NCBI RefSeq assembly: GCF_001433995.1
Contig: NZ_AZCX01000004.1
Span: 186,001 to 250,000 of the forward strand
Direction of reading: 5' to 3'
Length of the DNA: 64,000 nucleotides
Origin: Secundilactobacillus kimchicus JCM 15530
GTDB lineage: Bacteria > Bacillota > Bacilli > Lactobacillales > Lactobacillaceae
Below, one piece after another: positions 2,578 through 8,563 of this stretch. Made by a program: the position numbers and the translations under genes. The notes below the pieces were generated by a model that did no database searches, had not been told where the DNA came from, and worked only from the letters and a program-made list of their open reading frames with translations. Within the stretch, counting starts at the first letter, position 1, and each line of letters opens with the position of its first letter.

Positions 2578-3639
2578 ATGTTAACTATTGGTGATATTGA
2601 AAATCCGGCCTCCATCATTGCATGGTGGAACCAACGCAGTAACGAACGTAAACCGTATTTCTATCAAAGCGCCTTCGATCTGACGTATAGTTCGACTGAG
2701 ACGACTAAACTCTATTTTGGTGAAGAATCGAAGTTACGTATGATGACGGCTACTACGGAAGACGTTGGCTCAGTTAAGCTAGGGAATCGTGGCTTTGAAA
2801 GTGAAGCATACAACACTATTCCGTTCAAGAACTACAAAGCGATGGACGAAAAGCGCCGCCGAGATATTAATCGTGCACTGGCTAACAACGCTGATCCAAG
2901 CGAAGTGAAAGCCATCGCAAATACGCAATACAACGATTTGAACGACTTGCTCACATTCGCTTACGGGACGCGTGAAATCCTTGCTATGCAAGCTCTCACA
3001 ACAGGAAAGATTGTAGTGAGTGGTGCTGACGATAAAGGGAGCAACAACCTTATTTATACTCGCGACTTTCACATGCCAGCTGAACACAAGGACATTCAAG
3101 TAGGCACTGAATGGGGTACTAAAGATTCTAAGCCATTGGATGATATTCAAGATCAAATGGATAAGATTAATGACGACAACGGCACAACGATTGGCGTAGT
3201 GATCATGAATGGCCGAACTTTCCGTAAGTTAGCCAAGTCCGGTGAAATTGTTTCTACGCTGACTGATGGCCGAACTAGCGACGGGGTTGCCTTAGCTCAG
3301 TCAGCGGTTCTGAGCTTAGTACAAGAAACGCTTGGCGTTCGCGTGATTATTTATAACAAAGGAATTGGCACTGACCGATTTGTTCCCGACGATATGGTTG
3401 TCTTGGCGCCAGAAGGTTCATTAGGTCGCATGGTGTGGACTGATACCAACGAAGATATGGGTTTGACTGGTGATTCAACCGTCCAGCTTTCGCGTACTAG
3501 TGATGGAATTACCATTTACACGGATCGGATTCACGATCCTGTTTCAACACTGGTTCATACTTCACAAAACATCTTACCAGCTTTTGATAAGGTTCGTAAT
3601 GTGATGATTATGAACGTTGGTAAAGCGAGTAAAGGCTAA
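2578..3639 (+). CDS. Phage major capsid protein
   Basis: 353 residues, with AGGAGG eight bases before the ATG. It follows scaffold and decoration genes and has the length and composition of an HK97-fold/gpE-type major capsid protein. It includes a region NYKAMDEKRRRDINRAL (about residues 84-100), as in the P-domain spine region, and a C-terminal half rich in short beta strands. The normal frame ends KASKG then TAA at 3637. The reading continues without a break in the +1 frame for 26 more codons to TAG at 3713, so a longer capsid form may be made (see the separate entry). Confidence 0.8.
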   Translation: MLTIGDIENPASIIAWWNQRSNERKPYFYQSAFDLTYSSTETTKLYFGEESKLRMMTATTEDVGSVKLGNRGFESEAYNTIPFKNYKAMDEKRRRDINRALANNADPSEVKAIANTQYNDLNDLLTFAYGTREILAMQALTTGKIVVSGADDKGSNNLIYTRDFHMPAEHKDIQVGTEWGTKDSKPLDDIQDQMDKINDDNGTTIGVVIMNGRTFRKLAKSGEIVSTLTDGRTSDGVALAQSAVLSLVQETLGVRVIIYNKGIGTDRFVPDDMVVLAPEGSLGRMVWTDTNEDMGLTGDSTVQLSRTSDGITIYTDRIHDPVSTLVHTSQNILPAFDKVRNVMIMNVGKASKG

Positions 3640-3715
3640 GGCTGACACCCCCAAAAATGTTATAGCTACCCCGACAACAGATGGCGTAAAGGTTACGGCA
3701 AAGGCTAAAAAGTAG
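3614..3715 (+). other. Candidate +1-frame C-terminal extension of the major capsid protein
   Basis: In the +1 frame the DNA is open from 3614 to the TAG at 3713-3715, so a shift is possible only between 3614 and the frame-0 stop at 3637. The last frame-0 codons are AGT AAA GGC TAA G. A lysine tRNA can slide from AAA to the overlapping AAG, after which reading continues AKADTPKNVIATPTTDGV and then KVTAKAKK. The added peptide resembles segments at the end of the 3960-4238 gene product and in the sheath, which argues that it is real coding sequence. There is no start codon with a ribosome site for it on its own. Confidence 0.55.
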
Positions 3716-3730
3716 AAAGGATGAGTATTG

Positions 3731-3943
3731 ATGGCATTGAAGCTCAATCTATATAAGAAAGATGACTTGACCAAACCAGTAGCCACTGGAGATGATGCAA
3801 CTGGTGCAGTCCTTACGGGTATGGCAGCGGGGACTAAGGTTGTGGCTGGTGATTATAAAGCCACCCACGTGGACGATAGTGGAAAACTTGATGAATCCGA
3901 ACCAGTCGACGTTCCCGAATTTACGGTTCCAGCAGGTTCTTAA
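3731..3943 (+). CDS. Small structural protein, tandem paralogue 1
   Basis: 70 residues from the ATG at 3731 (ribosome site AAAGGATGAG; the TTG at 3728 is less likely). The protein MALKLNLYKKDDLTKPVATG is clearly related over its whole length to the next gene product: both share the KKDDLTKP, GDYKA.HVD and GKLDESE/D.VDVP blocks. It lies between capsid and connector genes, so it is probably a virion surface or head-associated protein. It lacks the C-terminal extension of its neighbour. I do not recognise a named family. Confidence 0.6.
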   Translation: MALKLNLYKKDDLTKPVATGDDATGAVLTGMAAGTKVVAGDYKATHVDDSGKLDESEPVDVPEFTVPAGS

Positions 3944-3959
3944 TTACGGAGGTAATATA

Positions 3960-4238
3960 ATGGCAGATTTGAAACTAAATGTTTACAAAAAAGACGATTT
4001 AACTAAGCCTATTGCAACAGGTAGCGATTTAGAAGGAACCGCTATCACCGGATTGTCTTCCGGAGATGTTGTGGCAGACGGCGATTACAAAGCTTCTCAC
4101 GTCGATCCAGACGGAAAACTAGATGAATCTGACAAAGTGGATGTGCCTGGGTTTACGGTTATTAAGTCTAAAGCTGTTGCTCCCACTAAGTTGACGGTTA
4201 CCCCAACTGCCGACGGAGCCGTGATTAAACCTTCTTAA
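3960..4238 (+). CDS. Small structural protein, tandem paralogue 2
   Basis: 92 residues from the ATG at 3960, with GGAGG upstream. Residues 1-67 duplicate the preceding gene product. The extra C-terminus, APTKLTVTPTADGAVI, matches the pattern found in the +1 extension of the capsid protein (TPKNVIATPTTDGVKV) and in the sheath (APANVKATPANDGAKV). The pattern looks like the first strand or strands of a fibronectin-III/Ig-like domain. The gene appears to have arisen by tandem duplication within the head module. The function is unknown; a virion decoration role is inferred from position. Confidence 0.6.
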   Translation: MADLKLNVYKKDDLTKPIATGSDLEGTAITGLSSGDVVADGDYKASHVDPDGKLDESDKVDVPGFTVIKSKAVAPTKLTVTPTADGAVIKPS

Positions 4239-4583: not shown

Positions 4584-4594
4584 GAGGTATGAAA

Positions 4595-4813
4595 ATGTCC
4601 AAGCAAACATTACTAAAACAAACTGGGACAGCGTTTCTGAACGAAGTAGAAGTTCCAGTTGCGGCCTACAAAGTGGCCGATGGTGATAGCCTGTATGGTT
4701 TATGGATTAAGTTTCGGTCACAAACAACTGTCGGTGCCATTATGACAGTTAATAAGCTAACGACCAGCGAATTACAACCGGGTAAGTCACTTAAGATTCC
4801 GTTGGTACTCTAA
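4595..4813 (+). CDS. Small LysM-domain phage protein
   Basis: 72 residues from the ATG at 4595, chosen because AGGAGG lies seven bases upstream of it but only one base from the ATG at 4589. Almost the whole protein is one LysM-like repeat: YKVADGDSLYGLWIKF opens it and ELQPGKSLKIPL closes it. LysM binds N-acetylglucosamine polymers. A single-domain LysM protein in the head-tail connector module is unusual, because phage LysM domains normally occur in the XkdP baseplate protein or in endolysins. It may have been co-opted as a structural neck subunit. Confidence 0.65.
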   Translation: MSKQTLLKQTGTAFLNEVEVPVAAYKVADGDSLYGLWIKFRSQTTVGAIMTVNKLTTSELQPGKSLKIPLVL

Positions 4814-6157: not shown

Positions 6158-7240
6158 ATGGCAAACACTTTATTTAGTACTTTGAGCCGGATTTCTCCAG
6201 CCCATATCTCGAATCAATACACCACCGCAGCAAAAGATGTTCCTACTGGGGCGCTTGTGAAAGGTGAGAAACAAGGAATTAAGGTCTATGACGATCTAGA
6301 TTCTTTAACTGAGGATTATGAATCATACACACCAGCATGGAAGAAAGCTCGCGCTTACTTTAAAGCTAATGGTGAGGCAGCCTCCCTGGCCGTAGTAACT
6401 TTTGCTGAAACAGATAGCAAAAAGGCGCCAGCCCCTGCCAATGTGAAGGCAACACCAGCAAATGACGGGGCGAAAGTAACTGCTGATGTGGTTACAGCGA
6501 TGGCTGATAGCGATTTGTCAGCAGACGCAATCGCGGCCGTGACGGCTTTAAAGAAATATTACTTTGCTGGACCGCAGTTCTGGTTCTTAGTTGATTTTGA
6601 CTCAGAGGTGGCCAATGCGATCTCAAACTTTGTCGAGAAGCAAAACACTGGGATTTTCTTAGCCTATTCAACTGATGCTACGCAACTGCAAGCCTTTACG
6701 GCGAATAAGAAGACCTATCCGATGACACTGCCAGCAGTTGATGATACCAATGCTGAGATTCAAGACACCTACAATAACGTATTTGACGCCGCGTTTGCCG
6801 GTGCTATGTACGGCCGCCGTCCACACTCAGCGGTTAAGTATGCCATTGGTGATTTGCCATATACCCAGCCGCAAGATCGCTACGATTTTACCCCTGATGA
6901 TATGGCGGAATTAGAAAAGTACAACATTGCTACTTATGCCTATGTATTAGATGCGCCACGATTAACTAGTTCACGCATGGCTGCAGAAGGTTTTCACTTA
7001 GATACCATCTTGGGTTGGGATTGGATTCAAAACGAAGTCCATGCTCGGCTAGCAAACTTGTTCGTACAAAGCGCCGACCAAGGGATCCCCTACGACGAGG
7101 TTGGTTTCGATTCAATCATTGGCGTCATTAAAGGTGTCTTTATCGATGCGGGAGATTTGGATATTATTGCGCCTATTCGTGATACAAATGGGAATGAGAC
7201 ATTACTCAGTAAACTATCTCAAACCTGGTCAACTGCCTAA
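6158..7240 (+). CDS. Phage contractile tail sheath protein (normal-frame product ends early)
   Basis: 360 residues in the normal frame, with an AGGAGG site. It has the organisation of DUF3383-like sheath proteins: an N-terminal ISPAHISNQY strand, an insertion near residues 90-110 (APANVKATPANDGAKVTA, like an Ig/fibronectin strand), a GPQFWFLVDF core strand and the RLTSSRMAAEGFHLDTILGWDWIQNEVHARL region. Sheath subunits contract to drive DNA injection. The frame stops at 7238 (TAA), about 35 residues short. The expected C-terminal arm continues at once in the +1 frame to 7340, so the gene is either read through a +1 shift or broken by a one-base insertion. Confidence 0.8.
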   Translation: MANTLFSTLSRISPAHISNQYTTAAKDVPTGALVKGEKQGIKVYDDLDSLTEDYESYTPAWKKARAYFKANGEAASLAVVTFAETDSKKAPAPANVKATPANDGAKVTADVVTAMADSDLSADAIAAVTALKKYYFAGPQFWFLVDFDSEVANAISNFVEKQNTGIFLAYSTDATQLQAFTANKKTYPMTLPAVDDTNAEIQDTYNNVFDAAFAGAMYGRRPHSAVKYAIGDLPYTQPQDRYDFTPDDMAELEKYNIATYAYVLDAPRLTSSRMAAEGFHLDTILGWDWIQNEVHARLANLFVQSADQGIPYDEVGFDSIIGVIKGVFIDAGDLDIIAPIRDTNGNETLLSKLSQTWSTA

Positions 7241-7812: not shown

Positions 7813-8325
7813 ATGGATAACGAAGAATTGCAAAACGACGCTAACGTTATCGGAGAAACTGCTCCCAAACCGGTAACCGAAGAAGTAGACGTTAAGCCTA
7901 TGCTTGATGTTACCAAAGAATCTTCCCTAAGAGAGGAAAAAAACGTTCCGACAGTTACTGATAAATTGCCCTCAATCAAACGTGCAAAGTTCGATGAAGT
8001 GTCAGTTGATGATAATTTCAACTTCGAATACGTGCTTAAAAATGGCAAGAAATTGTTAACGACGGTTGTTAAGCCTGGTCTACGAGTCAGTACCGAGCTT
8101 AGCGACAAAGAGGTTAAAATCTCAAGCGATGACAACGGTAATGATCTGGTGATACTCAATAAAATGGGTGTTTACTCATTCATTATGAAAGAAATCATTA
8201 AGGTAATTCAGGTGGACGACAAGCCAATGAATAAGGTTACATTTGATCATTTAACAGAGGTGGGCATGACGAAAGGTGAACTTGATGACTTTATGAATGT
8301 CATCAATACGTTTTATCTATCGTAG
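7813..8325 (+). CDS. Tail assembly chaperone, first protein
   Basis: 170 residues, acidic, between the tube gene and the tape measure gene, the fixed place of the first tail assembly chaperone (lambda gpG, PBSX XkdN role). It has a low-complexity acidic N-terminus (about 60 residues) and a compact C-terminal part ending FMNVINTFYLS. The second chaperone reading frame begins inside its end, in the +1 frame relative to it (equal to -2). A fused G-T product by frameshift between 8297 and 8325 is therefore possible. The chaperones coat the tape measure protein during tail assembly and are absent from the virion. Confidence 0.7.
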   Translation: MDNEELQNDANVIGETAPKPVTEEVDVKPMLDVTKESSLREEKNVPTVTDKLPSIKRAKFDEVSVDDNFNFEYVLKNGKKLLTTVVKPGLRVSTELSDKEVKISSDDNGNDLVILNKMGVYSFIMKEIIKVIQVDDKPMNKVTFDHLTEVGMTKGELDDFMNVINTFYLS

Positions 8326-8563
8326 TTCAATTTTTTTCAACAAACGACAGATAGAAAGCCTGTTTGAGCTTAATCCGGTGCTGGCGATGCGTTGGGCCAC
8401 TTATATTGCTGGGGCTTCTAACATTACGCCAGCAGAATTAGAGAACATGTCAGGCAATGAACTGAGCATTTTGCAGTATGCAACTGCTTTACGTACTAAA
8501 AATGAGCTGTATACGAAAGCAAATGCGATTGCCTTGGCCTTTGGTGGAAAGGAGGGAGACTGA
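8297..8563 (+). CDS. Tail assembly chaperone, second protein
   Basis: 88 residues counted from the ATG at 8297; the real upstream end is uncertain. It overlaps the first chaperone by 29 bases in the +1 frame and has no good ribosome site, so it may be made mainly as a frameshift fusion. The sequence contains LFELNPVLAMRWATYIAG and ELSILQYATALR, helical and typical of the second (T-type) domain. The stop TGA overlaps the ATG of the tape measure gene (TGATG), indicating coupled translation. Confidence 0.65.
   Translation: MSSIRFIYRSSIFFNKRQIESLFELNPVLAMRWATYIAGASNITPAELENMSGNELSILQYATALRTKNELYTKANAIALAFGGKEGD

Follow-up and report, generated by a model that had tools for sequence, protein, structure and literature searches.

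The end of the major capsid protein gene in the DNA stretch analysed here (64,000 nucleotides, hereafter the window) raises the question of what is encoded by the +1 frame that stays open past its stop codon, and whether ribosomes enter this frame to place the encoded peptide on some of the capsid subunits. The reading that we favour, at somewhat better than even confidence, is that the peptide makes up half of a split Fn3 domain and docks a small catcher protein in trans, and that in this particular phage it stands out of frame or is reached by weak slippage.

Layout of the Capsid Locus

The window is presumably part of a prophage in a Secundilactobacillus genome. It is identical to the IMG/VR contig L001 over all 8,636 overlapping bases, and the two probably represent one strain (L numbers denote the phage loci compared). 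The capsid gene is followed by two tandem small genes and, further downstream, by a putative tail sheath gene (Table 1). Its 3' end reads GGT AAA GCG AGT AAA GGC TAA, with the stop codon at 3637.

Table 1. Features of the capsid locus (positions in the window).
Feature	Position	Strand	Evidence
Major capsid protein gene, Phage_cap_E family	2578..3639	+	Pfam PF03864, E = 1.4e-26; relatives
+1-frame open stretch running beyond the capsid stop, tag-coding, stop TAG 3713-3715	3614..3715	+	ORF reading
AAA GGC TAA, possible +1 re-pairing of AAA to AAG near the stop; no heptamer, no CCC-stop	3631..3639	+	
Fn3 A-B strand tag, +1 frame	3641..3703	+	Tag HMM, E = 2.9e-4; fold model
Tryptic peptide of the capsid-tag extension: NVIATPTTDGVK			
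Small catcher gene encoding Fn3 strands C to G, A-B absent from both ends	3731..3943	+	Catcher HMM, E = 6.5e-30 (in training set); fold
Second catcher gene, strands C to G, then A-B tag	3960..4238	+	Catcher HMM, E = 4.2e-32 (in training set); fold
A-B tag, C-terminus of the 3960 product	4173..4235	+	Tag HMM, E = 5.5e-7 (in training set)
Putative tail sheath gene with internal A-B tag	6158..7240	+	Label from first-pass annotation and gene order
A-B tag inside the putative sheath protein	6425..6487	+	Tag HMM, E = 9.4e-6

A Pfam scan of the putative sheath gene gave no match. An insert similar to its internal tag was detected by the tag HMM in the corresponding protein of L042, L044, L045, L049, and L054. 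The head-tail region of the window also contains a small LysM-like gene (4589-4813), and comparable genes follow the capsid gene in L002, L005, L010, L022, and L024. Two overlapping genes ahead of the tape measure gene (7813-8563) occupy the position of the tail assembly chaperones (G/GT), and their overlap at 8297-8325 may contain a second recoding site.

The Peptide Encoded in the +1 Frame

The first-pass annotation had stated that the +1 frame continues past the capsid stop, and this was confirmed: no stop interrupts the frame between 3614 and the TAG codon, a run of 33 codons, 25 of them after the capsid stop. Since by an arithmetic estimate about one in five stretches of 33 random codons is free of stops, openness of the frame is weak evidence in itself. 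A profile was therefore needed, single peptides being too short for searching: the 33-residue peptide alone retrieved only weak Staphylococcus matches from phage records (E of 6-7), and the sheath tag alone gave matches only at E of at least 1.

For the tag HMM, the C-terminal ends of small phage proteins were used, 16 peptides in all, including that of the 3960 product of the window and leaving out the +1 peptide. The HMM matched a conserved peptide of about 21 residues at three places in the window, namely in the +1 frame behind the capsid gene, at the end of the 3960 product, and inside the putative sheath protein; no further matches at E ≤ 0.05 were found in the six frames of the 64-kb window. 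The earlier observation that the same kind of peptide recurs at the latter two places thus holds, and the protein-level constraint deduced from it was borne out. The DNA identity among the three tag stretches is only 51-56%, which together with the HMM match indicates a similarity at the protein level and no recent copying from neighbours. A relic of a recent tandem duplication was rejected for the same reason.

Predicted Fold of the Joined Halves

The peptide had been described as a short Ig-like strand. An Ig/Fn3-type element is indeed what the models point to; instead of a single strand, however, it resembles the beta hairpin formed by strands A and B of an Fn3 domain. The small proteins encoded downstream look as if they begin at strand C and run to strand G. 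The A-B part (about 21 residues) is termed here the tag, and the C-to-G part (about 66 residues) the catcher.

The region 3638-3940, with its two stop codons read as residues, was modelled with AlphaFold2 using 28 other alignment rows. The resulting seven-stranded Fn3 fold had a pLDDT of 90.1 and a pTM of 0.80, with local scores of 92 and 96 in the tag blocks and 68 in the stop-containing linker; these values describe a single-chain prediction through two stops by a program that may favour a common fold. The Foldseek matches listed for the joined model were overwhelmingly Fn3-type domains (best E of 6.8e-4 at probability 1.00, E ≤ 0.001 in only one of 1617 matches). In a second structural comparison, the best Z score, 9.3, was obtained for FN3tt (85 residues, rmsd 2.3, residues 1-100 of the model), followed by 9.1 for the Fn3 domain of a Bacillus chitinase; Z was at least 8 in 86 of 999 chains.

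When modelled alone, the 3960 product reached a pLDDT of 87.5 and a pTM of 0.63, and its A-B hairpin was predicted with good local confidence. Foldseek gave no match to this model at E ≤ 0.001 (best 0.34), and no Fn3 domain was recognised over its full length; in the second comparison, Z was at least 5 in 3 of 997 chains, mostly with residues 1-70 aligned, which correspond to Fn3 strands C-G. The two halves are joined naturally in L018, where the order is C-G, then A-B linked to C-G, then A-B, and Pfam fn3 matches the middle part at 1.3e-8. Pfam fn3 did not match the single or joined pieces from the window, and PDB profile searches returned weak matches only, with best E values of 0.15 and 0.019.

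Recoding Signals at the End of the Capsid Gene

Both frames are open over 3614-3636, and the sole codon in this interval that could re-pair in the +1 frame is AAA, present at 3622 and 3631 and followed by G in both places. The earlier proposal that the lysine tRNA slides from AAA to AAG stands as far as the pairing is concerned, this being possible and the sole option before the stop; the part that fails is the signal expected of a programmed shift. The codon following AAA 3631 is GGC and not a stop. The sequence AGT AAA GGC TAA contains no slippery site of the type X XXY YYZ and neither A-AAA nor CCC before the stop, the slip sites of relatives being A AAA AAC, C CCA AAA, and A-AAA-stop. A downstream stimulatory RNA structure was not detected either: relative to shuffled sequences, z was +2.3 for 3637-3730 and +1.6 for 3600-3720, positive values meaning less structure than in the shuffles. 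Among close relatives, z was -3.8 in L049 and -2.5 in L050; structure is also absent in L103 (z of -0.6) and L002 (z of +0.5), and RNA structure is therefore not a universal requirement.

Other ways of crossing the stop were considered for the window. Readthrough and a -1 shift were rejected, the latter because re-pairing is poor and a TAA stands immediately ahead of the last AAA; a -2 shift was rejected upon inspection by eye, since no codon re-pairs.

A further case of a displaced tag was observed in L164, where the capsid tag (3847-3906) lies in frame 0 after the stop; other phages with the same site have it in the -1 frame. Judging by its sequence, the L164 tag is likely a broken copy fallen from the slip frame, and loss of frame therefore appears to occur. 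Taken together with the lack of a slip signal and of RNA structure in the window, this favours frame disruption or weak slippage over a programmed shift. Most likely, a small change (an assembly error or a mutation of recent date) has put the capsid tag of the window out of frame, or the tag is reached by weak +1 slippage at AAA-G. An open shifted frame with a conserved peptide does overlap the end of a structural gene here, and because the tag keeps its consensus and the surrounding structural genes are open, some room is left for a working +1 shift. The identical sequence of L001 also speaks against an error, to the extent that a contig probably from the same strain can.

Capsid Gene Ends in Related Phages

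Relatives of the capsid protein at E ≤ 1e-10 were found in 43 of 397 genomes of the family. Conservation of the extension in related phages had been named as a check on the programmed shift; a tag in the +1 frame was not observed in any close relative. In close relatives with capsids 76-84% identical to that of the window, a frame is open past the capsid stop, which is the -1 and not the +1 frame, and it encodes other domains. In L049 (84% identical), the stop is preceded by A AAA AAC, and the -1 frame encodes an HeH-like (helix-extension-helix) peptide; in L050 and L042 (79% identical), the site is C CCA AAA and the -1 extension a Big_2-like Ig domain; L005 (76% identical) has A AAA AAA and again an HeH-like peptide in -1; and the -1 extensions of L002 and L043 contain Big_2-like domains, all these domain names having been assigned by the analyst from the sequences rather than by a Pfam scan. 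HeH/SAP-like peptides of about 40 residues, in the -1 frame after the capsid stop, were seen in L049, L005, L007, L008, L009, L012, L013, L045, and L054, and they resemble the +1 extension of the Cps protein of Listeria phage PSA.

A short tag of the same kind as in the window was detected by the tag HMM in the -1 frame after the capsid gene of L018. In L017, a distant relative, the extension lies in the +1 frame near TTT CCC AGT. Homologues carrying the extension in the capsid's own frame had been named as a finding that would point to a simple mutation in the window; they do occur, in L011 and L013, yet the capsids of these phages are only about 28% identical to that of the window. Searches with the 3731 protein for relatives having the +1 arrangement of the window returned only the window's own contig from the viral scan, and only the window and phages already found from the genome search.

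Distribution and Reading Frames of Tags

Among 82 distinct tag contexts, 48 tags lie in the -1 frame after a stop and 31 inside ORFs of at least 100 amino acids; the remaining three comprise one in the +1 frame (the window phage), one in frame after a stop, and one unassigned. The frame change of the window is thus not the one conserved in relatives. A-AAA stands directly at the stop in 44 of the 48 contexts with a -1 tag. In siphophage-like loci, the tag occurs in the -1 frame behind a capsid-sized gene and behind another gene, some 160-220 codons long and, judging by where it lies, the major tail gene.

The count of 82 left out L001, L003, L035-L037, L056, L171, L172, and L178. Most of these duplicate the window; L036 and L037 come from different contigs, which are also represented by L093/L051 and L049. 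L086, the IMG/VR copy of the window, was kept, in the same context as the window. L035-L037 and L056 were also left out of the tag-placement scan of loci. A listing of tags after slip sites omitted tag ORFs of at least 60 codons, for example that of L099, which entered the later 82-context count. The tag HMM cut-offs were E of 1 in the first scan, 0.3 in the tag-placement scan, and 0.05 in the co-occurrence and context counts. Many loci are near-duplicates (the same species in different collections), and the locus counts therefore do not represent independent events.

The expectation that such peptides stand in a shifted frame behind capsid and tail genes was upheld for related phages. In one phage group, pN/pS in the tag frame is 0.58 for the capsid and 0.44 for the tail tags versus 0.90-1.63 in the other frames, as calculated from 34 capsid and 34 tail matches (12 and 8 distinct) picked by position and end motif. 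In Enterococcus phage LoneStar (L167; 2370-2440 and 4740-4810), the capsid and major tail genes both end with CCC TAG and, by eye, are followed in the +1 frame by nearly identical tag-like peptides, which the tag HMM did not detect; this suggests a mobile cassette consisting of the shift site and the tag.

Catchers and Their Co-Occurrence with Tags

No tags were found at E ≤ 0.05 in 25 loci without catcher genes. At the same threshold, a tag outside the catcher ORF was present in all nine capsid loci with a catcher and in none of the five without one in a set of mostly 11-kb loci, in 4 of 10 with and 0 of 20 without a catcher in a set of 4-kb loci, and in 74 of 80 IMG/VR and 22 of 30 genome loci with catchers. 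No second tag at this threshold was seen in the other 6 of 80, 8 of 30, and (for the 4-kb set) 6 of 10 catcher loci, several of which are short or incomplete. Judged by sequence and predicted fold, the catchers, as putative acceptors, lack strands that are present on further proteins encoded by that phage.

The C-terminal cargo of catchers varies and may be a tag, an Fn3 domain, a Big_2-like domain, or a Thr-rich stretch. One query alone retrieved catcher relatives from 540 phage records, including 428 of Staphylococcus and 96 of Enterococcus. In Staphylococcus phage Fi4S2 (L169, 1546-3216), adjacent genes encode a tag-ended protein, a catcher with a Big_2-like domain and a tag, and a catcher only (tags assigned by eye). 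In L151 (1119-1733), a catcher located directly after a tag-ended ORF is joined to a long, beta-rich domain resembling a carbohydrate-binding module.

A Proposed Split Fn3 Domain and the Alternatives

According to the reading that we prefer, the A-B tag would occupy one of three places: the C-terminal end of the capsid or major tail protein, the interior of the sheath, or the end of a small protein. It would dock in trans into the C-to-G catcher, with which the small proteins from the genes directly downstream of the capsid gene begin, and so complete the Fn3 sandwich. Capsid, tail tube, and sheath could thus be decorated by docked catchers. If a catcher has a tag at its own end, as the 3960 product does, it would recruit the next catcher and is proposed to act as a chain extender; a tag-less one, such as the 3731 product, would end the chain and is proposed as a terminator. 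Where relatives have a tag downstream of the capsid or tail tube gene, ribosomes would in most cases reach it through a -1 shift at the A-AAA that precedes the stop; only some of the subunits would then be tagged, and the shift, whether -1 or +1, would set their number. In the window, the capsid tag would be an exception to this, displaced by a small change or reached by low-level slippage.

Among the alternatives, we regard as unlikely a programmed +1 frameshift at AAA-G that gives a fixed fraction of tagged capsid subunits; the case for it in the window phage is weak. It could draw on the +1 shifts known in capsid and tail genes of phages such as PSA, on the CCC-TAG sites ahead of the tag-like peptides of LoneStar, on the +1 extension of the distant relative L017, and on the ability of AAA to re-pair on AAG in front of a peptide that keeps its consensus. 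The site has, however, no CCC-stop, heptamer, or stimulatory structure, and a sense codon follows AAA; close relatives do not use a +1 shift, and the frame is unique to one of the 82 contexts. Similarly doubtful is the idea that the small proteins complete themselves, as a circular permutant or a swapped dimer, by folding their own A-B strands onto their own C-G strands, the shell tags being merely related hairpins. Many catchers do carry a tag of their own, and the confidently predicted hairpin of the 3960 product is in line with this. In an Fn3 domain, though, the end of strand G and the start of strand A lie at opposite poles, and the linker from G to A in the 3960 product has only about seven residues; this resembles the spacing between tandem Fn3 domains and therefore argues against self-closure. 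Moreover, the model of this product is unlike Fn3 over its full length, tag-less catchers exist (the 3731 product, L047, L160), tags sit on proteins without C-G strands, and no tags occur where catchers are absent.

It is improbable that the +1 peptide is an untranslated and functionless tail left from a deleted upstream copy of a small gene: the presence of two tandem small genes downstream, the variable copy number of such genes, and the frame shared by the peptide and the 3731 gene would suit this origin, but the peptide has only 52% of DNA letters in common with the 3960 tag and yet keeps the protein consensus, and in many other phages the tag is found precisely where the capsid gene ends, in most cases with a slip site. 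A start codon within the capsid gene, the in-frame TTG at 3617, could allow a small peptide to be translated independently; no ribosome binding site is evident by eye and the tags of relatives directly follow the slip site, which makes this explanation very improbable. As for a chance open frame, 33 open codons are not rare, but the HMM match at a place where many related phages carry the tag refutes it and leaves a practically negligible probability.

For many phages of lactobacilli, enterococci, and staphylococci, we consider the chances about even that their virions bear a natural split-Fn3 docking system, that is, a coat in which -1 or +1 shifting sets the tag density and catchers with exchangeable cargo can be daisy-chained into fibres of starter, extender, and terminator units. 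Until now, the short ends that capsid and tail genes carry in a shifted frame were taken for whole Ig-like domains or went unexplained. Should they serve as docking tags for separately encoded partners, this would account for a large set of small phage genes, which frequently bear the annotation major tail or hypothetical protein; frameshifting would gain a clear role in setting the density of tags on the virion, and a natural genetically encoded pair for the display of cargo on phage particles would become available.

Comparison with Known Systems

Frameshifted C-terminal extensions of capsid and tail proteins, which the first-pass annotation had named for PSA, are indeed described in PMC5009743, and slippage in PSA is annotated in NC_003291. 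According to the accessible parts of PMC5009743 and PMC8718954, Ig-like ends of this kind are established, and they occur in either direction or in frame; examples are phage A2 (-1, head and tail), T3, Listeria phage PSA (+1), and SPP1 gp17.1, with FN3 at about 3:1. Some protein evidence for the -1 type of cassette comes from Lactobacillus phage BH1, in which peptides of ORF7 were detected in a virion preparation (two unique, 49.4% coverage); the consulted part of PMC6950654 calls ORF7 a hypothetical Ig-like protein and makes no mention of a frameshift. In the BH1 sequence (L168, 1500-1840), ORF7 falls within the Big_2-like stretch by which the capsid gene continues in the -1 frame (..TPKA stop / ..PKSVTPDGV..), which fits the cassette of L050; ORF7 thus appears to be this continuation, a separate start being conceivable, and it was rejected as a catcher. 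No protein evidence was found for the tag itself. A search of the open-licence literature, consisting mostly of titles and the beginnings of abstracts, found no description of a split Fn3 domain on phages. The model of the 3960 product gave a Z score of 5.9 with chain 9d93_Sb of Bxb1, and in the accessible text on the related mycobacteriophages (PMC13252515, PMC13033339) no strand donation is described.

The window would resemble A2, T3, PSA, and SPP1, as far as the available sources describe them, in that a capsid or major tail protein is extended in a shifted frame, often by an Ig or Fn3 element and in some of the subunits only. It differs in having no recognised recoding signal and, unlike the known extensions of Ig/Fn3 type, which are whole domains, in adding only the A-B strands, the rest being a separate protein. 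In PSA (NC_003291), the capsid extension is likewise in the +1 frame. The PSA extension looks HeH-like, as do -1 extensions of close relatives of the window, whereas that of the window is an Fn3 A-B tag, and its site is AAA-G instead of a proline codon. The small accessory surface proteins with Ig-like folds found in T5 (pb10), N4, and as Hoc are, in the source text available, complete domains; in the system proposed here, the domain appears to be divided between the shell protein and its decoration.

A further parallel is donor-strand complementation. In chaperone-usher pili and in engineered tag-catcher pairs, a strand-deficient Ig-like domain is completed by a strand of its neighbour, and starter, extender, and terminator forms exist. 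The catchers would likewise be Ig-like domains lacking strands and completed from a neighbouring protein, as predicted here from sequence and fold. Unlike in the pili, no chaperone is known, and the donor would reside on the virion shell proteins and provide the two N-terminal strands of an Fn3 domain rather than one.
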